Program-made: the position numbers and the translations under genes
Shown: in pieces, positions 2 to 35,800 of the stretch
Position numbering within the stretch: position 1 is the stretch's first letter
How the letters are laid out: every line of letters starts with the position of its first letter
Origin: Bacteroides sp.
GTDB taxonomy: Bacteria > Bacteroidota > Bacteroidia > Bacteroidales > Bacteroidaceae
DNA: 47,027 nucleotides
Assembly (NCBI GenBank): GCA_017471925.1
Contig: JAFURM010000009.1
Location: forward strand, 1 to 47,027
Direction of reading: 5' to 3'
Notes under the pieces: model-generated
Told to the model about the DNA's origin: nothing
Seen by the model: the letters and a program-made list of their open reading frames with translations, nothing else
The model's database searches: none

Positions 2-2044
2 AAATACCTCACTGAAATCAAGGGAGTAGCACCCGAAAGGATTTTGCTTATCAGTTATACCAATAAGGCTGCTGCCGAACTTACCGAAAGAATGGCGACC
101 AATGGATTGAGAGGTTACACATTTCATAAGTTAGCCATTGATATTATCGGCAAAACAACAGGTGCAGAACCATCTATTTGCGACAATACAGATTCATTGT
201 TTGTAGATATATATCACAAATTGTTAGGTAAATCGTCTTTCAAGAAAAGTATCGTGGAATACTTTATTGATTACCAAACGAATGAAGCTGATTGGGAACA
301 ACGCAAGAATGAAAGACGAGAGCAATTATCAGAGCAAAAGAATGTGCAGCTAAAGGCGATGTTCCCCGATATGGACGGTAGAGCCATATATGTGAGAAGT
401 GAACAAGAACAAAAAATATGTTTTGCTTTGTCCTCGCTTGGAGTGAAATTCAGATATGAAGAATCATACGAGCATCAATTAGCAGATGAGATGCACTCAC
501 AATATCGTCCCGACTTCTCAATATATTTTGAGCAAGGAGGAGTAACCAAACGCATCTATCTTGAACATTTCGGAGTTGATGAACACGGGCTTGTTCCTGC
601 TTGGTTCGCAAAAGATAAGGGTATAACCTACGAAGAAGCCAATCAGAAATACAATGATGGTATAACTTGGAAGAAAGCGGCTCACGAGAAATTTGGCACA
701 CAACTATTAGTGACATCAAGTGCTGATTTCCATTATTCTGATATTAGGGATAAACTCCGTAAATTATTAGATGATGCAGGTGTACCAATTCAAGAAAAGA
801 CCGATGAGGAGTTATACGATTTAGTACTACCCAAAGGTAGCAAGCAGGAAAAGGCGTTTATACGACTTGTCGTCACTTTCGTTACATTGGTGAAGTCAAG
901 TTGCAAATCAGTTAAAGAGGTCTTGAAACAAGCCAAAAATGCAGATGATGAACGAAGTGTATTTATCATCAAGAACATATTTCAACCTGTATATGAACGC
1001 TACATAAATGCGTTAAGCGATAGTAACCAAATTGATTTTACCGATGCTATTATTCAAGCCACAGAGATATGTCGTACTTTACACCCTGTTGAGTATGATT
1101 ATATCATAGTGGATGAGTTTCAAGATATTTCAGTTGACCGTTACAATTTCTTGAAAGTATTGCGAGAGGGTAATCCTCCTGCAAAGTTGTATTGTGTGGG
1201 TGATGATTGGCAGTCTATCTATCGCTTTTCGGGAAGTGATATGGCTCTATTCAATCAATTCCCCGAATATTTTGGAGCAACGGAGATAAACAAGATTGAA
1301 ACGACATACAGATTTGGAGAGCCTTTGGTTTCTTTATCCTCGAACTTCATACAACGCAATAAAGCCCAAATACAAAAGAATATCCATTCGTTCAGTTCTG
1401 AAATGAAAACTGAGCTGGAATTCTATGCTTACGATAGACGAGATTACTGCAATACGATAGGGCAACTTGTAGCTTCTATTCCATCGGATAAATCAATATT
1501 CCTATTGGGGCGTTACTCTTTTGATGATTATTACCTCTCCTTTATGTACCAATCAATTAAAGAGGGTAATAGATTCTACTATGTGATAGGAGGACGAAAG
1601 ATAGAATTTTTAACCGTACATAAGTCAAAAGGTCTTGAAGCGGATTATGTAATACTCTTACAATGCAATAAAGATACATACGGTTTCCCATCACAGGTGA
1701 GTGACGACCCTGTGCTTAACTATGTACTCACTAAAAGCGACCAATTCCCATACGGAGAAGAAAGAAGATTATTCTATGTTGCAATAACAAGGGCTAAGAT
1801 AAAAACGCTTGTATTATACGATAAGCGTTTTCCGTCTGTATTTGTGGATGAGTTCTTGCACCCCGAAAAGGTTTCCGAAGAAAGCTATGTAAAACACCCC
1901 AACGCTAATAAAAGATGGACGAGAGGTGCAGACCAATTCCTATTGAAGTTACACAGCGAGGGAAAGAGTGTGAAATACATTGCTGCTAAAATGGGCAGAA
2001 GCCAAACATCTATCGTTATGCGATTGAATAAGCTTAAACAATAA
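2..2044 (+). CDS. UvrD/Rep-type superfamily 1 DNA helicase with nuclease-like insert (5' end outside window)
   Basis: The reading frame is open from the first bases of the window, so the N-terminus with Walker A lies outside; a TTG at 44 is not a real start. Numbering from that TTG, motif Ia (SYTNKAAAE) is residues 4-12, Walker B VDEFQD 356-361, motif III QSIYRF 390-395, motif V TVHKSKGLEAD 524-534 and motif VI RLFYVAITRAK 575-585. This is an ATP-driven 3'-5' DNA helicase of the UvrD/HelD group. Between motifs Ia and II is a long insert with RPDF (155-158) and YLEHFG (172-177), the D/E pattern of a PD-(D/E)XK or Vsr-like nuclease. The last 40 residues resemble a small helix-turn-helix. The gene is AT-rich like its neighbours up to about 4.5 kb. 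Helicase assignment is firm; nuclease activity and a role in repair or defence are inferences. Confidence 0.9.
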   Translation, partial: KYLTEIKGVAPERILLISYTNKAAAELTERMATNGLRGYTFHKLAIDIIGKTTGAEPSICDNTDSLFVDIYHKLLGKSSFKKSIVEYFIDYQTNEADWEQRKNERREQLSEQKNVQLKAMFPDMDGRAIYVRSEQEQKICFALSSLGVKFRYEESYEHQLADEMHSQYRPDFSIYFEQGGVTKRIYLEHFGVDEHGLVPAWFAKDKGITYEEANQKYNDGITWKKAAHEKFGTQLLVTSSADFHYSDIRDKLRKLLDDAGVPIQEKTDEELYDLVLPKGSKQEKAFIRLVVTFVTLVKSSCKSVKEVLKQAKNADDERSVFIIKNIFQPVYERYINALSDSNQIDFTDAIIQATEICRTLHPVEYDYIIVDEFQDISVDRYNFLKVLREGNPPAKLYCVGDDWQSIYRFSGSDMALFNQFPEYFGATEINKIETTYRFGEPLVSLSSNFIQRNKAQIQKNIHSFSSEMKTELEFYAYDRRDYCNTIGQLVASIPSDKSIFLLGRYSFDDYYLSFMYQSIKEGNRFYYVIGGRKIEFLTVHKSKGLEADYVILLQCNKDTYGFPSQVSDDPVLNYVLTKSDQFPYGEERRLFYVAITRAKIKTLVLYDKRFPSVFVDEFLHPEKVSEESYVKHPNANKRWTRGADQFLLKLHSEGKSVKYIAAKMGRSQTSIVMRLNKLKQ

Positions 2045-2216: not shown

Positions 2217-3002
2217 TTATATTTTGAGAACAATTCATACAAAGAGATTCTTTTAGGACTTTACACGAAAGGGGGATTTAACCTCACATATAATGGTTTT
2301 AGCGAACCTCAACATTTTTATTTGGAATATAATAAAGAGGGGGACAATGATATTATTTACCATCGAAATCCATTTGAGTTTGTTGACTTAGGATTGAGTG
2401 TTAAATGGGCATCAAATAATATTGGAGCCAAATCCATAGGAGAACCAGGTTATTATTTGGGATGGGGCGAAACCAATCAGTAAGCAAATAATATTCCTTA
2501 TGATGCTGAACATAATCTTTTTGGGTACCGTAGAAAAAATAAAGATGGTATAGTGGAATGGCATTACCGAAGTATTGGGACTTCGATATGTGGAACTAAT
2601 TATGACGCAGCAAGGCTACACTGGGGAACGTCATGTAGAATGCCTTCAAATAAAGAAGCCGAGGAATTAATTACCAAGTGCCGATTTATCACTGGCAGTG
2701 AAAATGGTCTCTCTGGCAGGTGGGCAATCGGTCCTAATAATCATGCTATTTTTCTGCCATCAGGGGGAATTACAAATCCGACATTGAACGATGTGAAAAA
2801 TCATCAGTATGACGCGCGAGGTTGGTATTGGACAGGGGAGATAAGTTCAACTAATTATCCATATTCAGGATGGGCTTGTTCAATCTGCGAACATTACGCA
2901 GGATCATTTTTTGTAACTACTGGAACATCCAGTTTGGGAGAGGAATATGGTAAAAGTGAAAGATGTACCGGTATGAATATACGTGCTGTATGTTCAAAAT
3001 GA
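2217..3002 (+). pseudogene. Broken Fib_succ-type surface/paralog domain gene with in-frame TAA
   Basis: Frame-consistent translation on both sides of a TAA at 2481-2483 gives one recognisable protein. Before it stand VDLGLSVKWAS and YYLGWGET; after it come HWGTSCRMPS, GRWAIGPNNHAIFLPSGG, GWYWTGE and a terminal IRAVCSK. These blocks occur in this order in the Fib_succ_major / DUF1566-like proteins that Bacteroides carries in many copies, often as secreted or lipoprotein paralogs. No ATG exists in this frame between the stop at 2214 and 2481, so the signal peptide is also missing. An ATG at 2134 downstream of the promoter opens only 23 codons and stops at 2203. The likeliest reading is a decayed gene; a sequencing error at 2481 would not restore the missing 5' end. 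Confidence 0.75.
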
Positions 3003-21262: not shown

Positions 21263-23779
21263 ATGGACAATCAATTTTCACAAAGAGTTTCTGATATCAT
21301 TGCTTATGGTCGGGAAGAAGCCTATCGACTGAACAACAAGATGATAGACCCCGAACATCTGCTGCTGGCCATGATGCGCGACAGCAAAGGAAAGGCTGTC
21401 GGATTACTGCACATGCTGAATGTGGATTTCTCCAAGCTGAAGAGGGAGGTGGAATCATTCCTGACGAGTTCCGCAGAGAGCAAGCTATCACCGGACACTG
21501 AGATTTTCCTCTCTGCCAAGACGGCCAGGGTATTGAAAATATGTATTCTGGAAGCCCGCGTCCTGAAAGCAGAGACAGCCGATACCGAACATCTGTTGCT
21601 GGCCCTGCTGAAGGTGAACGACAACATGGCCGCCACTCTGCTGCAAGAGCAACGGGTGGACTATGACGCCGTATTGGGAATGCTCTCCAAGAAGACGGCC
21701 AACCCCAACATCAACATGGGATTCACGCAGGACGATGAGGAAGAAGAGGAGAACATGTCTCAAGAATCATCGGAGAAATCCACCCCTTCCACAGCCAAGA
21801 GTTCGGTTAAAAAGCCCAACAATGACACGCCCGTATTGGACAACTTCGGAATAGACATGACCGCCATTGCCATGGAGGGAAAGATGGACCCCGTTGTAGG
21901 ACGTGAAAAAGAGATAGAGCGTGTAGCTCAGATTCTGAGCAGAAGAAAGAAGAACAACCCCATTCTGATTGGTGAGCCAGGTGTAGGCAAATCAGCTATC
22001 GTAGAGGGACTTTCACTACGCATTGCACAGAAGCGGGTCTCCAGGGCCTTGTTCAACAAGCGGGTCATCATGCTGGACATGGGAGGCGTAGTGGCCGGCA
22101 CCAAATACCGGGGACAGTTCGAAGAGCGGATGCGCTCCATCATTACCGAGGTGAAGCGCAACCCCGACATCATCCTTTTCATTGACGAAATACATACTAT
22201 CATAGGTGCCGGTTCGGCTGCCGGAACCATGGATGCGGCCAACATGCTGAAGCCGGCTCTGGCACGCGGAGAGATTCAATGCGTCGGTGCAACCACCCTG
22301 GACGAATACAGGAAAAGCATTGAGAAGGACGGTGCCCTGGAACGTCGTTTCCAGAAGATTATCGTGGAACCGACCACGCCCGAAGAGACCCTGCAAATCC
22401 TGGAGAACATCAAGGATAAATATGAAGAGCATCACAACGTGGTCTACACGGAGGAGGCTCTGAAGGCATGTGTCAAATTGACAGAGTTATACATCACCGA
22501 CCGCAAGTTCCCGGACAAAGCCATTGATGCCCTGGACGAATCAGGCTCACGGACACACCTGAGCAACATATCGGCTCCCAAAGAGATCGAGAAACAGGAG
22601 AGACTGATAGAAGAGACGCAGCGGCAGAAGACGGCAGCCATACAGTCGCAGAACTTTGAACTGGCCGCCAGCTACCGCGACCGCGAAAACATGCTCACCA
22701 CCCAACTGGAAGAGATGAGACGCCAGTGGGAGAACGAGCAGAAAGAGCAACGCCAGGTGGTAGATGCCGAGGACATCGCCCACGTGGTCTCCGTGATGTC
22801 CGGCATTCCCCTGCAACGCATTGCCCAAAGCGAGAATGCACGACTGGCCGGCATGAAAGACGAACTGAAAAAGCGTGTCATCGCCCAGGATGCCGCCGTA
22901 GAGAAGCTTTCCAAAGCCATCCTGCGCAGTCGCGTGGGACTGAAAGACCCCAACAGGCCCATCGGGACGTTCATGTTCCTCGGACCGACCGGAGTGGGCA
23001 AGACCCACCTGGCCAAGCAGTTGGCTACGCTTATGTTCGGATCGGCCGATGCCCTTATACGCATAGACATGAGCGAGTATATGGAGAAGCACACCGTGTC
23101 TCGCATGGTAGGTGCCGCGCCCGGTTACGTAGGATATGAAGAGGGGGGACAGCTGACGGAAAAGGTAAGACGCAAGCCCTACTCCATCGTACTGTTAGAC
23201 GAGATAGAGAAGGCCCATCCCGAGGTGTTCAACATCCTGCTGCAAGTGCTTGACGAGGGACGCCTGACCGACAACGTAGGCCGGGTGGTGGACTTCAAGA
23301 ACACCATTATCATCATGACCTCCAACATCGGAACACGCCAACTCAAGGAGTTCGGCCGCGGAGTAGGCTTTGCCGCACAGACCCGCACGGACGACAAGGA
23401 GTATTCAAGAGGAGTGATACAGAAGGCACTGAACAAGAGTTTCTCGCCCGAATTTCTGAACCGTCTGGACGACATCATCACCTTCGACCAGCTTCCGTTG
23501 CCGGCCATCAAGCAAATCGTCGACATTGAGTTGAAGGCTCTATTGAGCCGCGTCGAAGCCCTGGGCTATCAGATGACGGTGGAGGATGACGCCAAGGAGT
23601 TCATCGCGTCCAAGGGTTATGACACACAATTCGGTGCCCGACCGCTGAAGCGTGCCATCCAGACCTACCTGGAAGACGAACTTTCCGAGCTGATTATCTC
23701 GGGAACCATCCAGGCCGGCGACACCATCTGTGTCTCCAAAGAGAGCGGACAGGAGAAGCTCAGCCTGCAAAAGGCATAG
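21263..23779 (+). CDS. clpC: ATP-dependent Clp protease ATP-binding subunit ClpC
   Basis: An 838-residue Hsp100 unfoldase that recognises misfolded or tagged proteins and feeds them to ClpP. The double Clp_N repeat covers residues 1-145, followed by a Glu- and Ser-rich linker. The first AAA+ module has Walker A GEPGVGKS at 237-244. A middle domain with a UVR-like segment ([14 protein letters not shown]) marks the ClpC type rather than ClpB. The second module has GPTGVGKT at 574-581 and the VGF loop (701-703) for docking ClpP. The ATG at 21263 follows GATAAA with no strong Shine-Dalgarno, as usual in this phylum. htpG follows 119 bp later with its own promoter. Confidence 0.96.
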
Positions 23780-23811
23780 CATACGGCCAAACAGATGCAC
23801 GCGCTTAAGCG

Positions 23812-23824
23812 TGACAAAATGTCA
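23812..23824. promoter_or_regulatory. Palindrome TGACA-N3-TGTCA upstream of htpG
   Basis: A perfect 5-bp inverted repeat with a 3-base AAA centre, ending 12 bp before the -24 element of the htpG promoter. A dyad of this size is the usual footprint of a dimeric regulator. It is too small to terminate clpC. Confidence 0.55.
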
Positions 23825-23836
23825 GTTCATCGCAAC

Positions 23837-23852
23837 TGGCATTTTTTTTGCA
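23837..23852 (+). promoter_or_regulatory. Sigma-54-type promoter of htpG
   Basis: TGGCA (23837-23841) and TTGCA (23848-23852) place GG and GC exactly ten bases apart, a full match to the -24/-12 core of RpoN promoters. A T-tract fills the spacer. The predicted start near 23862 leaves a leader of about 37 nt. No TAnnTTTG element is visible between clpC and htpG, which supports this reading. A sigma-54 activator gene is present in the same window at 34586-35800. Confidence 0.65.
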
Positions 23853-23898
23853 CACGTGTCTGCAGAATCAAAAACAAACTAAAAACAGTATATAAGTT

Positions 23899-25953
23899 AT
23901 GCAAAAAGGAAACATTGGGGTTACTACCGAGAACATATTCCCCGTCATCAAGAAGTTCCTCTACAGCGACCATGAGATTTTTCTCCGCGAACTGGTGTCC
24001 AACGCTGTCGATGCCACACAGAAGCTGAAGACCCTCTCCTCCATAGGAGAATATAACGGCGAACTGGGCGACCTGACTGTACACGTTGCCGTAGACAAAG
24101 AGAAAGAGACCATCACCGTCTCCGACCACGGTATCGGCCTGACGACCGAAGAGATAGACAAGTACATCAACCAGATTGCCTTCTCCGGCGCCAACGACTT
24201 CCTGGAGAAATACAAGAACGACGCCAACGCCATCATCGGCCATTTCGGTCTGGGCTTCTACTCGGCCTTCATGGTAGCCAAGAAGGTGGAAATCGTGACC
24301 AAGTCCTATCAGGAAGGAAGCCACGCCGTGAAATGGAGCTGCGACGGAAGTCCGGAGTTCACCATCGAAGAGTGCGACAAGGCCGAACGAGGCACCGACA
24401 TCATCCTGCACATCGACGATGACTGCAAGGAGTTCCTGGAAGAGAACCGCCTTTCCGGCCTGCTGAAGAAGTACTGCAGTTTCCTGCCCGTGTCCATCGC
24501 CTTCGGCAAGAAGAAGGAGTGGAAGGACGGCAAGCAAGTGGAGACGGCAGAGGACAACATCATCAACGACTCCAACCCCTTGTGGACACGCAAGCCCGGC
24601 GACCTGAAAGACGAAGACTACAAGAACTTCTATCGCGAGCTCTACCCCATGAGCGACGAGCCGCTCTTCTGGATTCACCTCAATGTGGACTATCCCTTCC
24701 ACCTCACCGGTGTGCTCTACTTCCCGAAGGTGAAGAGCAACATCGAGCTGAACAAGAACAAGATACAGCTCTATTGCAACCAGGTCTACGTGACCGACTC
24801 GGTGGAAGGCATCGTGCCCGACTTCCTGACCCTGCTGCACGGTGTACTTGATTCGCCCGACATTCCGCTGAACGTTTCGCGTTCCTATCTGCAGAGCGAC
24901 AGCAATGTCAAGAAGATTTCCACCTACATCACCAAGAAGGTATCCGACCGTCTGCAGTCCATCTTCAAGAACGACCGCAAGCAGTTCGAGGAGAAATGGA
25001 ACGACCTGAAGATTTTCATCAACTACGGTATGCTGACTCAGGAAGACTTCTATGAGCGGGCACGCAACTTCGCCCTCTTCACCGACACCGACGGCAAGCA
25101 CTACACCTATGAAGAGTATAACACGCTCATCAAGGAGAACCAGACGGACAAGGACGGCAACCTCGTCTACCTCTATGCCGCCAACAAGGACGAGCAATAT
25201 GCCTACATCGAAACCGCCAAGAACAAGGGTTACAGCGTGTTGCTCATGGACGGGCCTCTGGACATCGCCATCGTAGGCATGCTGGAGCAGAAGTTCGAGA
25301 AAAGCCACTTCACCCGTGTGGACGGTGACGTGATAGACAACCTCATCGTCAAGGAAGAGAAGAAGGCCGACACACTGAAGGCCGGACAGTCCGAAGCCCT
25401 CACCGCCATCTTCAAGAGCCAGATTCCGCAGATGGAGAAAGCCGAGTTCCACATCCAGCCGATGGCTATGGGCGAGAACAGCCAGCCCATCACCATCACG
25501 CAGAGCGAATACATGCGACGCATGAAGGAGATGGCCAACATACAGGCCGGCATGAGCTTCTACGGCGAGATGCCCGACATGTTCAACCTGGTGGTGAACA
25601 CCGACCATCCGCTCGTCAAGGGTATCCTGACCGATGAAGAGAGCAGTTGTGCCGCCAAGCTCACTCCGCTGCAAGCCGCTCTGGAAGAGAACGAGAAGCA
25701 GATAGATGTCCTCAAGAAGGCACAGGAAGGCAAGAAGGACGAGGAGATTTCCACGGACGAGAAAGACGAGAAAGAGGCACTCCACAAGAAGCAGGACGAG
25801 CTGAAGACACAGAAGGAAGCCGTCTATGCAGCCTATGCAGCCGACAACAAGATTGTGCGCCAGCTCGTAGACCTGGCCCTGCTGCAGAACGGCATGCTGA
25901 AGGGAGAGGCGCTGAACAAGTTCGTCACCAGAAGCATCGAACTGATCAAATAA
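23899..25953 (+). CDS. htpG: Molecular chaperone HtpG (Hsp90)
   Basis: A 684-residue cytoplasmic Hsp90 that uses ATP to remodel client proteins. The GHKL ATPase domain occupies about residues 1-215, with the conserved ELVSNAVDA, DHGIGL and GHFGLGFYSAFMV motifs for nucleotide binding. The middle domain has the RSYLQSDSNVKKI stretch with the catalytic-loop arginine, and the C-terminal dimerisation region is lengthened by a charged, Lys/Glu-rich insert around 595-635, giving a protein longer than E. coli HtpG (624). There is no MEEVD tail, as expected in bacteria. It is monocistronic with a strong terminator. A 727-codon frame on the opposite strand is a codon-bias shadow. Confidence 0.97.
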   Translation: MQKGNIGVTTENIFPVIKKFLYSDHEIFLRELVSNAVDATQKLKTLSSIGEYNGELGDLTVHVAVDKEKETITVSDHGIGLTTEEIDKYINQIAFSGANDFLEKYKNDANAIIGHFGLGFYSAFMVAKKVEIVTKSYQEGSHAVKWSCDGSPEFTIEECDKAERGTDIILHIDDDCKEFLEENRLSGLLKKYCSFLPVSIAFGKKKEWKDGKQVETAEDNIINDSNPLWTRKPGDLKDEDYKNFYRELYPMSDEPLFWIHLNVDYPFHLTGVLYFPKVKSNIELNKNKIQLYCNQVYVTDSVEGIVPDFLTLLHGVLDSPDIPLNVSRSYLQSDSNVKKISTYITKKVSDRLQSIFKNDRKQFEEKWNDLKIFINYGMLTQEDFYERARNFALFTDTDGKHYTYEEYNTLIKENQTDKDGNLVYLYAANKDEQYAYIETAKNKGYSVLLMDGPLDIAIVGMLEQKFEKSHFTRVDGDVIDNLIVKEEKKADTLKAGQSEALTAIFKSQIPQMEKAEFHIQPMAMGENSQPITITQSEYMRRMKEMANIQAGMSFYGEMPDMFNLVVNTDHPLVKGILTDEESSCAAKLTPLQAALEENEKQIDVLKKAQEGKKDEEISTDEKDEKEALHKKQDELKTQKEAVYAAYAADNKIVRQLVDLALLQNGMLKGEALNKFVTRSIELIK

Positions 25954-26031: not shown

Positions 26032-26096
26032 CGTCCTTTTTTCCTATAAATAAGAGTTTTCAGCCTTGGGCATACCGTTATTTGCAAACAAATCTT

Positions 26097-26104
26097 TATA
26101 TTTG
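26097..26104 (+). promoter_or_regulatory. Promoter -7 element of the patatin gene
   Basis: TATATTTG, an exact TAnnTTTG match 32 bp before the ATG at 26136; the -33 element is unclear. It argues against a start at 26082. Confidence 0.5.
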
Positions 26105-26135
26105 GACGTTTTTCCATACTAAAAACGACAAAGAC

Positions 26136-28439
26136 ATGAAGAAGACCGTTTCTCTGCTGACACTGCTTGCCATGCTGATGCTTGCACCTTTGAACGCCCG
26201 GGCGCAAAAGGTGGGACTGGTATTGAGCGGTGGCGGTGCCAAGGGCATGACCCACATCGGCATCATCAGGGCACTGGAAGAAAACGACATACCCATCGAC
26301 TACATCACGGGCACCTCCATGGGAGCCATCATCGGCTCACTCTATGCCATGGGCTACTCGCCCGACGAAATGGAGGAGCTGCTCCGCTCGCCCGACTTCA
26401 AGCGGTGGTACACCGGACAGGTGGAGCCACAATATGAATACTACTTCAAGAAGGGCCGTCCCAACCCCGCCTTCTTCAACATCCGCTTCTCGCTGCGCGA
26501 CTCGCTGAACACCACCTCCCTGAGACTGCCCACCAACATGGTGCCGCCCATACAGATGAACCTCGTGTTCGTGGAGCTGTTCGCCCGCTCAACCGCCGCA
26601 GCCCAAGGCGACTTCAACAACCTCTTCGTCCCCTTCAGGTGCGTGGCTTCCGACGTCTACAACAAGAAGGCACTCATCATGCGCAAGGGCGACCTGGGAG
26701 ATGCCGTGCGGGCCTCCATGAGCTTCCCCTTCGTCTTCAAGCCCATTGAGATAGACAGTCTGCTGGCCTATGACGGCGGCATCTACAACAACTTCCCCAC
26801 CGACGTGATGCGCGAAGACTTCCACCCCGAAGTCATCATCGGCAGCGTGGTGGCCACCAATCCCAGCCGCCCCACGGAGAGCGACCTCATGAGCCAGATA
26901 GAGAACATGGTGATGCAGAAGACCGACTACACCATCCCCGACTCCCTGGGGCTCGTCATGACCTTCCGCTATGACGACGTCAGCCTGCTGGACTTCGACC
27001 GCCTGGACGAACTGCACGACATCGGCTACAACCGCACCATGCAGCTGATGGACTCCATCAAGGGACGGATTCAGCGGCGAAAGCCTCTCGAGGAGGTGCA
27101 ACGCCAGCGGACGGAATACCGCCACACCCTGCCCGAACTGCGCTTTCAGGAGATTCAGATAGAGGGAGCCAACGAGCAGCAGCAGGCTTACATCCGGAAA
27201 GAGTTCCATGACGAAGAGCAGGACATATTCACCTACGAAGACCTGAAGCGCGGCTACTTCCGCCTGCTGTCGGACAATATGATTTCCGAAATCATCCCCC
27301 ACGCCGTCTACGACCCCGAAAGGCAACTCTACAAGTTGCACCTGAAGGTGAAGATGGGAGCCAACTTCTCCGCACGAGTGGGCGGCAACGTCTCCACCAC
27401 CAGCTCCAACCAGATATACCTGGGACTCACCTATCAGGACCTGAACTACTACTCCAAGGAACTGTCGTTGGACGGACAGATAGGCAAGATATATAATAAT
27501 GTGCAGTTCATGGCCCGCATGGACTTCCCCACCCGCATCCCCACCTCCTACCGCTTCATCGCCTCCATCAGCACCTTCGACTACTACGAGAAGAGCAAAC
27601 TCTTCTCGCGCAACGACCAGCCCACGTTCAACTCCAAGGACGAGAGGTTCGTGAAGCTCATGGTGGCCCTACCCTTCATGGCCAACAAGCGGGCGGAGTT
27701 CGGTGTCGGCTACGGACGGCTCACGGACAACTACTTCCAAAGCAACGTCATCAACTTCGGCGAAGACCGGTTGGACAGAAGCACCTATCACCTCCTGGGA
27801 GGCTCCATCGGCTTTTATGGCAGCACCCTGAACGCTCGCCAATATGCCACAAGAGGCTACTACGAGAAAATGCTGGCCCAAATCTTCACGGGCAAGGAAC
27901 GCTTCACGCCCGGCAATCCCGCCAAGCAAGCCTCGGCCAAGGAACGGCAGTCGTGGCTGCAGGTATCCTACCTCAAGGACTCCTACCATCCCCTCTCCCC
28001 CCATTTCACCCTGGGATGGATGGCCGAAGCCGTCTACTCCTCCAAGAACTTCTCGGAAAACTACACGGCCACCATGATGCAGGCCTGCGAATTCTCCCCC
28101 ACCCCGCACAGCAAGCTGATGTACAACGAAGCCTTCCGCGCCAACCAATACATGGCGGCAGGCATCAAGCCCATCTTCAACCTGAACGACATGTTCCACA
28201 TGCGGATGGAATTCTATGGCTTCATGCCCATCTTCCCCATCAAGAAGAACACGATGGACAAGGCTTACTACGGCAAAGCCTTCTCGCGCTTCGAATACAT
28301 GGGCGAGATGTCCATCGTCTGCCAGCTGCCCTTCGGAGCCATATCGGCCTACCTAAACCACTATAGCTCACCCGCTAAGGAGTGGAACGTGGGACTCACG
28401 CTGGGTTGGCAGCTGTTCAACTACAGGTTTGTGGAGTGA
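26136..28439 (+). CDS. Patatin-like phospholipase fused to Omp85-type barrel (type Vd-like)
   Basis: 767 residues from the ATG at 26136, which begins a clean signal peptide (MKKTVSLLTLLAMLMLAPL, cleaved near ARAQ). The patatin domain covers about residues 25-310: oxyanion loop SGGGAKG (31-37), nucleophile GTSMG with Ser61, and the second dyad residue Asp213 in YDGGIYNNFP. A single POTRA-like segment follows (about 330-420), then a C-terminal beta barrel of the surface-antigen/BamA class ending in GWQLFNYRFVE. This order matches type Vd secretion proteins such as PlpD and FplA, where a lipase is delivered to or displayed on the cell surface. The catalytic pair is intact, so lipid-acyl hydrolase activity is expected. 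Substrate and release are unknown. Confidence 0.9.
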   Translation: MKKTVSLLTLLAMLMLAPLNARAQKVGLVLSGGGAKGMTHIGIIRALEENDIPIDYITGTSMGAIIGSLYAMGYSPDEMEELLRSPDFKRWYTGQVEPQYEYYFKKGRPNPAFFNIRFSLRDSLNTTSLRLPTNMVPPIQMNLVFVELFARSTAAAQGDFNNLFVPFRCVASDVYNKKALIMRKGDLGDAVRASMSFPFVFKPIEIDSLLAYDGGIYNNFPTDVMREDFHPEVIIGSVVATNPSRPTESDLMSQIENMVMQKTDYTIPDSLGLVMTFRYDDVSLLDFDRLDELHDIGYNRTMQLMDSIKGRIQRRKPLEEVQRQRTEYRHTLPELRFQEIQIEGANEQQQAYIRKEFHDEEQDIFTYEDLKRGYFRLLSDNMISEIIPHAVYDPERQLYKLHLKVKMGANFSARVGGNVSTTSSNQIYLGLTYQDLNYYSKELSLDGQIGKIYNNVQFMARMDFPTRIPTSYRFIASISTFDYYEKSKLFSRNDQPTFNSKDERFVKLMVALPFMANKRAEFGVGYGRLTDNYFQSNVINFGEDRLDRSTYHLLGGSIGFYGSTLNARQYATRGYYEKMLAQIFTGKERFTPGNPAKQASAKERQSWLQVSYLKDSYHPLSPHFTLGWMAEAVYSSKNFSENYTATMMQACEFSPTPHSKLMYNEAFRANQYMAAGIKPIFNLNDMFHMRMEFYGFMPIFPIKKNTMDKAYYGKAFSRFEYMGEMSIVCQLPFGAISAYLNHYSSPAKEWNVGLTLGWQLFNYRFVE

Positions 28440-32855: not shown

Positions 32856-33242
32856 TTAATTGGCCGGAGCATTCGTATTGTCGGTAGCAGACTGGTCGGC
32901 ACCATCGGTTGCCGGAGTGTCCATAACCGGAGCATCCGTACCTACAGGCATGGTATAGGGGTTGGTTACACCTTCCTGCTGGGCCTGCTCATAGATTACA
33001 CTGCCCTCCTTCTGTGCGGCAGAAGGAAGCGTATAGGCAGAAACGATACTGAAAACAACCATCACTGCAGCCAACGTCCAAGTGGTCTTCTCCAGGAAGT
33101 CGGTCGTCTTGCGCACACCCATAATCTGGTTGGAAGATGAAAAGCTGGAGGCCAGGCCGCCACCTTTAGAATTTTGAATCAATACAATGAAACACATCAG
33201 CACGGATGCAATCACCATTAAGATAACTAATAATAAGTACAT
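32856..33242 (-). CDS. secG: Preprotein translocase subunit SecG
   Basis: 128 residues: two membrane segments (about 2-21 and 54-73) flanking the conserved NSKGGGLASSFSSSNQIMG loop, the SecG signature. SecG assists SecYE and SecA in moving proteins across the inner membrane. The C-terminal tail of about 50 residues, rich in Ala, Thr, Asp and Asn, is an extension common in Bacteroidetes SecG. It is the last gene of the envelope operon, 6 bp after the TPR-like gene. Confidence 0.95.
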   Translation of the reverse strand: MYLLLVILMVIASVLMCFIVLIQNSKGGGLASSFSSSNQIMGVRKTTDFLEKTTWTLAAVMVVFSIVSAYTLPSAAQKEGSVIYEQAQQEGVTNPYTMPVGTDAPVMDTPATDGADQSATDNTNAPAN

Positions 33243-33248
33243 TTTCTA

Positions 33249-34064
33249 TTATTTTGATTTAGCGTTAATAATCAATTTCTCTAAGAATCTTATTTGGTCT
33301 GCAAAGTAAGCATTTTTTTTTGGATAATTCAAACTTAATTTCTTTATAATTTCAAGAGCTTTCTCATATCGGTGCTGTTTTATATAGATTTTAGCCAAAG
33401 TTTCGGTAAAACAGTTCTCCTCAAGCTCCTCTTCCCCGCCCAAAAGACGCTCTTGCCAATCGGCCTCCGGGCTGTCCCCTACTCCGCTTTCAGCCCTATC
33501 CGCCTCCTCCTCGCTTTCTGAAAAGCCGACAAACTCCCGTGTCTCCTCACTCTGCCGGAGGAAGCCGTCAATGAGTTGCATGCTTCGCGGCCGCTCCTCT
33601 TCCCCTGCGGGCTGTCGGAGCGGCCCCTCTTCGCTCACCTGTTCTTCCGTTCCCTCCTCGTCCTGCATCAGATAGGCGGTATAGTCCATGGCATAATCCA
33701 ACTCCCCACTGTCCGCAGTATGTTCTTCGGGCAGGGTGGCCAGGAAAGAGTCTATCAGGAACAGGGTGCGGTCCATGTCCGGTTCCGCCTCCTGCATCTC
33801 GGGCACACTTGGACGGGGTTGCATCCGATAGCGGTCTCCCTCTATCAGATAGAACAGCATGCGACGGTCGGCCACATAAAGTACCGACTTGCGCAGTTCG
33901 CTGCCGAAGTCAATGTCGTGCAGCAGGAAGAGGTTCTTCAGATAGAGCAGACGGGCCGTCTGGAAATAGGGATAGCGGGCCACCAGGTTGCGCAGTTCAT
34001 ACAAGGTGTCCCTGTTCAGTTCTTCAGGATGCTCCATCCATCGTTGCAGGCGTGTAGATGTCAT
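33249..34064 (-). CDS. TPR-like protein between lptE and secG
   Basis: 271 residues from the ATG at 34064; an in-frame TTG at 34112 would run back into lptE. The N-terminal third (ELRNLVARYPYFQTARLLYLK) is a helical block found in Bacteroidetes proteins at this locus. The middle is a long Glu-rich acidic, probably disordered stretch. A final TPR-like helix pair, ETLAKIYIKQHRYEKALEII, ends with SLNYPKKNAYFADQIRFLEK. No signal peptide is seen, so it is probably cytoplasmic. The function is unknown; fixed position between lptE and secG suggests a link to envelope export. Confidence 0.78.
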   Translation of the reverse strand: MTSTRLQRWMEHPEELNRDTLYELRNLVARYPYFQTARLLYLKNLFLLHDIDFGSELRKSVLYVADRRMLFYLIEGDRYRMQPRPSVPEMQEAEPDMDRTLFLIDSFLATLPEEHTADSGELDYAMDYTAYLMQDEEGTEEQVSEEGPLRQPAGEEERPRSMQLIDGFLRQSEETREFVGFSESEEEADRAESGVGDSPEADWQERLLGGEEELEENCFTETLAKIYIKQHRYEKALEIIKKLSLNYPKKNAYFADQIRFLEKLIINAKSK

Positions 34065-34071
34065 GGCGTTA

Positions 34072-34599
34072 TTACCAGTTAGCAACAGTGGAGTTAAAGA
34101 TTTGTTCGGCAATATCCTTCACCATGACGGTTATCAGGCCATCCTGAACGGACGTGAGTTGCTGGGAGGAGTCATAGGTCTGGAAGGCGGAGAACTGCTG
34201 GTCGGTAAAGTCCTCCTCATGGTTCGTGTTGTTCACGTAAGAGACCTTGACCGTCAGGGTCAGTTTCACCTTGGAGGAGTAACCGCTGGCATCCACGGCT
34301 TCGTTGTACTGGTTGTAGCCAGTAATCTCACCGCTGATTTCCAGGTCACCGCCCGAATCAACCAGCTGCAGACGTGTCTGCTGGATAAACATATCCTTCA
34401 GTTTCTGATTGAATTCCACCGCCAACGGACCGTAGACATACTCTGCCCTGTTCTCGAAATCGGTTATCGTGATGGTCTTTACCTTATTATAATCTATGGA
34501 ACTGATAGGGGCCAATCCAAAGGAGACCTTGCACGAGTAGACTACCAGTGCCACAATCATCAGTCCCAGGGGAACTATCATCTTCTTAATACAAGCCAT
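34072..34599 (-). CDS. lptE: LptE-family LPS assembly lipoprotein
   Basis: 175 residues with a lipoprotein signal ending in the lipobox VYSC (Cys23) and the LptE-like fold, with ITDFENRAEYVYGPLAVEF early on. LptE plugs LptD and helps place LPS in the outer leaflet. The start at 34599 is preferred to Met7 because only it supplies the positive n-region (KK) of the signal. It overlaps the end of the sigma-54 activator gene by 14 bp, so the two are translationally linked. The window also encodes LptC. Confidence 0.88.
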   Translation of the reverse strand: MACIKKMIVPLGLMIVALVVYSCKVSFGLAPISSIDYNKVKTITITDFENRAEYVYGPLAVEFNQKLKDMFIQQTRLQLVDSGGDLEISGEITGYNQYNEAVDASGYSSKVKLTLTVKVSYVNNTNHEEDFTDQQFSAFQTYDSSQQLTSVQDGLITVMVKDIAEQIFNSTVANW

Positions 34600-35800
34600 A
34601 TTCTTTTATCTTTCTGTATAAAGTGCGCTCTGAGATTTTCAGGTCCTGTGCAGCCGCCTTGCGTTTGCCGTGATGTTTTTCAAGGGCTTTGCGTATCGTT
34701 TCCTTCTCGTTTTCGTCCAGTGCGAGACTCTCTTCCACATACTCTTCCGTGTCCTGGATGTCATCATCCACAGGCTGCACGGGAGCTGCCGGTCTCACTG
34801 CCGTATGGATAATCGTGGGCACGGCATCTGTCTGCATCGGTGCGTTGACAACACCTCCGGCACGCTCGGCCATGATGTTATGCACCAGTTTCTTCAACTC
34901 GGTCACATCCTTGCGCAGGTCAAACAGGATTTGGTAGAGGATTTCGCGCTCACTCTCAAAGCTCTGCGCCTCCTTCGTGCCCAGCAGTGCCGGCAGATGC
35001 GACACATTAAGCGGCATGGGCAGGTAGGTTTTCAGTATGGGGGCATCAATTTCGCGCCGGGTCTCTATGATGGAAATCTGCTCGGTGATGTTCTTCAACT
35101 GGCGCACGTTTCCGGGCCAGGAATAGCTCTGTAGCAGGTGTCGGGCCTCTTCCGTCAGTTGGATGGCAGGCATGCGGTACTTCTCGGCAAAGTCGGAAGA
35201 GAACTTGCGGAACAGCAGGGAGATGTCCTCTCCGCGTTCACGCAGGGAAGGCACCTGGATAGGGATGGTGTTCAAGCGGTAATACAGATCTTCACGGAAG
35301 CGTCCGTTGGCAATGGCCTGTGTCAGGTTCACGTTGGTTGCCGCCACAATACGCACATCGGTCTTCTCCACCTTGGAGGAGCCTACCTTGATGAACTCTC
35401 CACTCTCCAGGACACGCAACAGGCGGGCCTGTGTGGAGAGCGGCAACTCTCCCACTTCATCCAGGAAAATGGTTCCGCCATGAGCCTCACCAAAGTAGCC
35501 TGAACGCTCACCGATGGCACCGGTAAAGGCTCCCTTCTCGTGACCGAAGAGTTCCGAATCTATCGTACCTTCCGGAATGGCTCCACAGTTCACGGCAATA
35601 TATTTCCCATGCTTGCGCTTGCTGTACTGATGGATAATCTGCGGGAAACTCTCCTTACCCACACCGCTCTCTCCCGTTATCAGGACAGAGAGGTCTGTAG
35701 GGGCCACCTGAATGGCTATATCAATGGCCCGCATCAATGCCTCATTGTTGCCAATGATGCCGAAGCGTAGTTTCACCTGCTGTAGTTCCGCTCTCGTCAT
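34586..35800 (-). CDS. Sigma-54-dependent transcriptional activator without sensor domain (PspF-like)
   Basis: 404 residues. The AAA+ domain begins almost at the N-terminus: Walker A GESGVGKES (43-51), the sigma-54 contact loop GAFTGA (90-95) and Walker B GTIFLDE (109-115). There is no receiver, PAS or GAF domain in front. A linker of about 90 residues with Pro and Glu/Asp follows, then a Fis-type helix-turn-helix (about 365-402, ending RTLYRKIKEYGLY). With GAFTGA intact it should remodel RNA polymerase carrying sigma-54 at GG-N10-GC promoters. Lack of a sensor means control by a partner protein, as PspA does for PspF, or by amount. It is 3 bp after pdxA and overlaps lptE. Confidence 0.93.
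   Translation of the reverse strand: MTRAELQQVKLRFGIIGNNEALMRAIDIAIQVAPTDLSVLITGESGVGKESFPQIIHQYSKRKHGKYIAVNCGAIPEGTIDSELFGHEKGAFTGAIGERSGYFGEAHGGTIFLDEVGELPLSTQARLLRVLESGEFIKVGSSKVEKTDVRIVAATNVNLTQAIANGRFREDLYYRLNTIPIQVPSLRERGEDISLLFRKFSSDFAEKYRMPAIQLTEEARHLLQSYSWPGNVRQLKNITEQISIIETRREIDAPILKTYLPMPLNVSHLPALLGTKEAQSFESEREILYQILFDLRKDVTELKKLVHNIMAERAGGVVNAPMQTDAVPTIIHTAVRPAAPVQPVDDDIQDTEEYVEESLALDENEKETIRKALEKHHGKRKAAAQDLKISERTLYRKIKEYGLY

Follow-up and report, generated by a model that had tools for sequence, protein, structure and literature searches.

The htpG gene is preceded by a predicted sigma-54 promoter and a palindrome

We analysed a stretch of 47,027 nucleotides (hereafter the window), which belongs to a 2.87-Mb genome that, judging by its relatives, would be a member of Bacteroidota. 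The element under study lies between a gene for a ClpC/ClpB-type AAA+ protein and htpG. A patatin-like phospholipase gene (26082-28439) comes after htpG on the same strand. The features are as follows.

21263..23779, plus strand: ClpC/ClpB-type AAA+ gene (838 aa), upstream of htpG and on the same strand
23812..23824, plus strand: predicted activator site TGACA-AAA-TGTCA, TGACAAAATGTCA; from sequence, recurring before chaperone genes at a fixed or helically phased distance
23816..23849, plus strand: hairpin and T tract, the probable clpC terminator; from RNA folding, covariation and congeners
23816-23827 and 23834-23845, plus strand: the two stems of the hairpin; from RNA folding
23825-23836, plus strand: 12-nt spacer between palindrome and promoter
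23837..23852, plus strand: predicted sigma-54 -24/-12 promoter TGGCATTTTTTTTGCA, GG-N10-GC; from sequence, TGG-N10-G being kept in congeners
23838-23839 and 23850-23851, plus strand: GG of the -24 box and GC of the -12 box, N10 between them
near 23863, plus strand: expected htpG +1, from the position of the predicted promoter
23899..25953, plus strand: htpG (Hsp90), 684 aa; NCBIfam HtpG, 663.9 bits against a cut-off of 371
32856..33242, minus strand: SecG; precedes groES in Flavobacteriales
33249..34112, minus strand: 287-aa ORF, whose relatives follow the activator gene in 8 of 12 Flavobacteriales regions (L402 included)
34072..34599, minus strand: LptE, the next gene after the activator
34586..35800, minus strand: candidate activator of the receiverless sigma-54 type, 404 aa; from domain matches, synteny and single-activator genomes

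The original prediction had placed TGACA-AAA-TGTCA 12 bp before a TGGCA/TTGCA box with GG-N10-GC spacing, and we found both the arrangement and the spacing to be base-exact. It had also stated that no housekeeping -7 element is seen; TAnnTTTG was indeed absent within 300 nt upstream of htpG, and a sigma-70 promoter scan of 23700-23950 gave zero matches. The genome has rpoN, with all three domains. A small inverted repeat, CACGCGCTTAAGCGTG (23798-23813), borders the palindrome upstream; it is listed on the minus strand by the terminator scan and was not seen in the congeners compared.

Among 70 congeneric htpG upstream regions, 68 were parsed automatically, and the other two (L007 and L109) also carry the element on re-reading. 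TGG-N10-G was invariant in 68 of 68, with CA-T8 or CAC-T7 alike, and the gap from TGTCA to TGG was 12 (41 regions), 13 (25) or 14 (2). The exact left half TGACA occurred in 7 of the 68. The -12 dinucleotide was GC in 17, GT in 50 and GA in one, the G being kept in all. Two degenerate TGNCA half-sites make up the palindrome, and GT usually replaces the -12 GC in congeners; the window's copy is thus tidier than the genus norm. Sigma-54 control of htpG with a nearby activator site, as first proposed, is supported at the level of sequence; the strict palindrome and the GC rule did not hold across the genus.

The predicted htpG promoter shares its bases with a probable clpC terminator

The palindrome and promoter bases of the window fold as a hairpin with a T8 tail (-15 kcal/mol, z -3.28), and 2 of 200 shuffles reached an equally good fold. 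The inner stem covaries among congeners: 30 distinct arm pairs were found, and all four base pairs form in 73% of cases, compared with 23% (maximum 40%) after permutation. By the criterion of this analysis, 65 of the 68 htpG upstream regions have both the hairpin and the T tract, and the clpC tail lies upstream in 63. L097 fails the criterion through one extra base. A consensus terminator scan missed the hairpin and listed just another, minus-strand one; in our own reading, pairing between the A tract and the first T's leaves a shorter tail to be counted. The hairpin and T tract, which the original prediction overlooked, are probably the clpC terminator: the hairpin would end clpC transcription and the promoter would start that of htpG.

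These data also bear on the explanation that the element is the intrinsic terminator of clpC only, the sigma-54 look arising incidentally from a TGTCAG/CTGGCA stem and the T run after it, with htpG served by another promoter. A well-folding hairpin whose inner stem covaries, its presence after the clpC tail in nearly all congeners and the loss of the -12 GC in 51 of 68 would all suit such an explanation. However, TGG-N10-G is exact in every one of the 68, and L004 and L024, which lack the hairpin by the criterion, retain TGTCA, TGG and N10-G at promoter spacing. No other promoter was seen upstream of htpG. We demoted the terminator-only explanation on the grounds that clpB, hsp20, grpE and groES carry the composite of site and promoter without the hairpin (see below), and we now consider it improbable. 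The covariation of the hairpin together with the invariant TGG-N10-G therefore points to two constraints acting on the same bases, with a sigma-54 promoter as one of them.

The composite recurs before chaperone genes across Bacteroidota

The exact 13-mer palindrome occurs at two places in the 2.87-Mb genome, before htpG and before clpB. The clpB copy ends 79 nt before the start codon, and 12 nt further on comes TGGCAAATCTTTTGC (TGGCA-N6-TTGC), so that palindrome and GG-N10-GC, expected to recur at other chaperone genes of this genome, do so before clpB with a 12-nt spacer again. The composite is beyond chance because the exact 13-mer recurs there with the same spacing. A search for GACA-N3-TGTCA-N(2..30)-TGGCA-N6-TTGC in this genome returned the htpG and clpB places only, and the reversed control gave 0 matches in 296 genomes of the phylum. 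The strict composite was found in just 6 of these 296, as seven matches with spacings of 12, 12, 12, 23, 11, 11 and 10. TGGCA-N6-TTGC alone was rejected as evidence; with 83 matches in the genome and 19 for the reversed control, it is uninformative by itself.

We further scanned one genome for each of 84,980 species with GACA-N3-TGTCA-N12/13-TGGCA-N6-TTGC and obtained at least 116 stretches, 8 of them with no readable downstream ORF. Among the 80 titles listed, 78 were Bacteroidota and the other two Mycoplasma and Agrobacterium. A chaperone or Lon/Clp gene lay downstream in 103 of the 108 stretches with a readable ORF among the matches listed. Pfam assigned these downstream ORFs, again among the matches listed, to HSP90-type ATPase (26), GrpE (22), HSP70 (17), HSP20 (12), Cpn60 (11), Clp_N (7), Lon (4) and Cpn10 (2); the total of 103 includes one htpG and one clp-like gene recognised by signature or lid domain only. 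The same composite precedes hsp20-like genes in five congeners (L134-L138). For dnaK, groES, grpE and hsp20, the evidence comes from the genomes of relatives. The original prediction had regarded htpG as an exceptional chaperone gene under RpoN; it appears instead to belong to a chaperone regulon that many Bacteroidota share.

The five other downstream ORFs were non-chaperone (L154, L170, L201, L245 and L265). At L154, an uncultured Taibaiella sp. contig (motif at 2957-2995, minus strand), the composite lies 31 nt before a CD-NTase-like gene (Pfam SMODS), a kind of gene found in CBASS anti-phage defence. This single case could be chance or defence under stress control.

A receiverless sigma-54 activator is encoded near groES-groEL in relatives

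The candidate activator gene lies about 11 kb from the htpG element in the same window. Residues 15-182 of its product form a sigma-54 AAA+ domain and residues 361-401 a Fis-type HTH; the protein has no receiver. With GAFTGA in the sigma-54 interaction domain and a DNA-binding HTH, it belongs to the sigma-54 activator (EBP) family. The genome encodes five true sigma-54 activators, four with receiver domains and the receiverless one of the window. Its architecture is PspF-like in that no receiver or sensor domain precedes the AAA+ domain, but it scored 266 bits with TIGR02974 (PspF) against a cut-off of 443.55, indicating that it is not a PspF equivalog. In an alignment of 7 activators (13 sequences had been intended), the recognition part of the HTH was nearly unchanged from the window to a 0.34-Mb genome. 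The linker, about 100 residues long, was variable save for the stretch ExxxLYxxLFxxxxDxxxLKxL, which is kept in all 7 and is a possible regulatory handle.

Matches to the C-terminal part of the activator were present in 111 of 119 Flavobacteriales genomes. Twelve regions from this order were read first, and in 11 of them groES-groEL followed the activator gene on the same strand; 8 of these 11 had an lptE match in between, and 8 a secG match. Of the 49 genomes examined overall, 43 had groES downstream of the activator, and the two genes shared a strand in 35 of 35 loci checked. In the window, lptE and secG follow the activator gene and groESL is not adjacent. The 287-aa ORF beside them gave zero matches in Pfam and NCBIfam. 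From this co-occurrence and synteny, the activator is likely the protein that pairs with the palindromic site.

Sites stand at helically phased distances from the promoter

We searched the genus with TGTCA-N(4..22)-TGGCA-N6-TTG and examined the spacing in the 150 matches listed, which come from 21 of 46 genomes. The distribution peaked at N=12 (35 of 150), with a second rise at N=21 (19) and N=22 (14), and every other spacing was seen 11 times or fewer. A stricter search of 60 genomes gave 76 matches, with 17 at N=12, 7 at N=13 and no other spacing above 5. All six loci fetched with N=21 or 22 are dnaK promoters; these six, and five clpB loci at N=12, were picked for their spacing, so they identify the genes and are no test of spacing. 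Several further fetched loci (L412-L415, L417, L419, L420 and L422) had zero matches to chaperone references. TGTCAAGGCGGTTGGCACTYGTYTTG recurs at N=7 in many genomes of the genus. No second conserved block was found upstream at 87 N=12 loci.

Because these loci had been found by the motif itself, we also assembled groES upstream regions in Flavobacteriales by synteny with the activator gene, which yielded groES in 43 genomes. A TGGCA promoter lay 43-82 nt before the groES start codon in 41 of the 43, and the promoter score was reached in 42 of 43, as against a mean of 1.3 and a maximum of 5 in base shuffles. The set of 41 loci omits L438 and L445, whose promoter score or distance was outside the limits. 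As strict patterns had proved nearly or wholly empty, a looser half-site description was adopted, and the best TGWCA-N3-TGWCA scored 9-10 of 10 in 36 of the 41 regions; the half-sites are degenerate and may stand in either order. In dinucleotide shuffles, 0.63 of 44 rows on average reached this score (maximum 4), the 44 including three duplicated genomes (L395/L426, L396/L433 and L397/L423) that were removed from the 41-locus set. The -12 dinucleotide of the 41 promoters was GC in 23, GA in 14 and GT in 4, with the G always kept.

The distance from the site to TGGCA fell into clusters of 12 (4 loci), 23 (5), 34-35 (2) and 42-44 bp (22), and three sites lay outside them (62, 65 and 76). With a 10.5-bp period, R was 0.85 over all groES distances, 0.90 in the 22 sites from non-reduced genomes and 0.80 in the 14 from reduced ones, in genomes that are related and hence not independent. 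Many of the 42-44 bp sites in free-living species lie inside the secG terminator, whose hairpin holds a TGCCA-N3-TGTCA-like sequence at that distance from the groES -24 box (L391-L394, L443, L446, L451 and others). This is a second case of a site within a terminator, and a different constraint may hold these sites in place.

Most of the known inverted repeats at heat-shock genes are repressor sites. We also considered that the sigma-54 promoter is real and that the palindrome binds a repressor, like HrcA or RheA sites elsewhere, the driving activator being another protein or binding elsewhere. Sigma-54 activator sites usually lie farther from the -24 box than 12 bp, a distance that would suit an operator. 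However, the position of the site shifts by whole helical turns (12, 23, 34-35 and 42-44 bp, and N=21-22 at the six dnaK loci picked for that spacing), which blocking would not need, and the upstream regions of the 87 N=12 loci offer no second block for another activator. Reduced genomes with one activator moreover retain the site at groES and grpE, and we judge a repressor site unlikely. The phased spacing would fit binding by an activator on one face of the helix.

Reduced genomes keep one activator together with groES and grpE sites

Each of 14 reduced genomes (0.3-0.6 Mb) had the window-type activator as its only activator above 200 bits; the other matches reached at most 39 bits and were read, by frame length, as ClpB, FtsH and ClpX. 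Genome size and placement suggest that these small genomes are those of insect symbionts. In the 0.6-Mb group, grpE had TGGCA-N6-TTGC with TGTCATWATGACA 11-13 nt upstream in 11 of 11 loci (TGTCATTATGGCA in one), and Pfam confirmed grpE in the four loci tested. The strict composite with TGGCA was found in 0 of the 14 genomes.

Two further kinds of match in the reduced genomes were dropped. A recurrent TGGCACGGAGTTTGC (L331, L340, L341, L343, L346 and others) was rejected as a promoter since it looks like 16S rRNA, presumably the 530 loop, which seems to be a trap for sigma-54 promoter scans. Other non-grpE matches (for example L333, L342, L349, L354, L357 and L359) look coding.

The reduced genomes also speak to the possibility that the receiverless activator serves envelope biogenesis and is a mere neighbour of groESL, a receiver-type activator controlling the chaperones. 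In the window it lies closest to lptE and secG, and four receiver-type activators are available in the genome, both of which favour such a role. Against it, three reduced regions that we read keep the activator before groESL with no BLAST-visible lptE, so LptE seems unneeded, and the reduced genomes retain promoter and palindrome at groES and grpE although no other activator exceeds 200 bits. An envelope role is thus a doubtful alternative, and the receiverless protein is favoured as the activator of the chaperone promoters.

Discussion

Taken together, our results make it probable that the htpG element combines a sigma-54 promoter with an activator site close to it, and that it is one member of a Bacteroidota chaperone regulon (htpG, clpB, dnaK, grpE, groES-groEL, hsp20 and lon) driven by the receiverless activator. 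We propose that RpoN-containing RNA polymerase is poised at the -24/-12 box, and that the activator would bind TGNCA-N3-TGNCA on one face of the helix, either 12 bp upstream or farther away by one to three turns. Under protein-folding stress, free activator would open the promoter through ATP hydrolysis; otherwise, chaperones or another partner probably hold it inactive. The idea of titration by chaperones draws on an analogy to known heat-shock circuits. At htpG in the window's genus, the element appears to have merged with the clpC terminator: one stem arm would contain the right half-site and the other the -24 box, with the T tract as the promoter spacer.

Several observations count against this explanation. 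The C of the -12 box is replaced, by GT or GA, in three quarters of the htpG promoters and in 18 of 41 groES promoters. The strict composite is rare in the phylum and absent from the reduced genomes searched. Finally, groESL is not adjacent to the activator gene in the window's own genome, and the 42-44 bp sites coincide with the secG terminator.

A wider proposal, to which we give somewhat better than even chances, is that the heat-shock response of Bacteroidota has one master regulator, a receiverless sigma-54 activator titrated by chaperones and acting from helically phased, proximal TGNCA-N3-TGNCA sites instead of a freely placed enhancer; that its duty at groESL and grpE explains the persistence of RpoN in insect endosymbionts whose genomes measure 0.3-0.6 Mb; and that htpG of this genus fuses the site, the promoter and the neighbour's terminator. 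This proposal names a promoter type, a site and one gene whose loss should abolish the heat-shock response. It may also explain why flavobacterial insect endosymbionts have retained RpoN, and presents a promoter and a hairpin on the same bases under two constraints. The presence of rpoN in Walczuchella, Uzinura and Blattabacterium is reported in PMC3971599 as unusual for insect endosymbionts and is tied there to nitrogen.

Predicted sigma-54 chaperone promoters in Bacteroidota are already known. A 2025 study predicted them before GroEL, GroES, IbpA/Hsp20, GrpE and DnaK/DnaJ in Bacteroidota and Planctomycetota; its predicted targets also include HSP90, which is enriched in Bacteroidia, and COGs of the Clp/Lon type in those two phyla (PMC12316311). 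The same study calls grpE and groES of B. thetaiotaomicron sigma-54-dependent, citing the Blattabacterium genome paper. Its predicted regulon has the same promoter type and chaperone set as ours; the sections of PMC12316311 considered here give no activator site, spacing rule or responsible activator, whereas all three are proposed here, and the strings 'palindrom' and 'upstream activat' are absent from its text. PMC3162934 has no mention of 'Bacteroid-' or groES. Our literature search found no activator or site assigned to the chaperone promoters, although an earlier description is possible, and no experimental account of heat-shock gene control in Bacteroidota. The activator site, its phasing, the identity of the activator and the fusion with a hairpin were not found described and are apparently new.

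The candidate activator resembles the sensorless activators of the PspF type in its N-terminal AAA+ domain, its Fis-type HTH and, presumably, a separate control partner. It differs from PspF in scoring below the family cut-off, in its long linker with a conserved stretch, in lying beside groESL rather than pspA, and in having sites that are proximal and phased. Heat-shock regulons elsewhere are run by sigma-32 or by HrcA, HspR and CtsR. Like the regulon predicted here, these place one switch over dnaK, groESL, clpB, grpE, hsp20 and lon; unlike it, they use a sigma-70-family factor or repressors, where we predict sigma-54 activation. In Proteobacteria, sigma-54 promoters occur at single heat-shock genes, such as E. 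coli ibpB and rpoH. Those cases likewise put a heat-shock gene under RpoN, but they concern one or two genes, whereas in Bacteroidota the predicted regulon would take in most of the classical chaperone set of a phylum.
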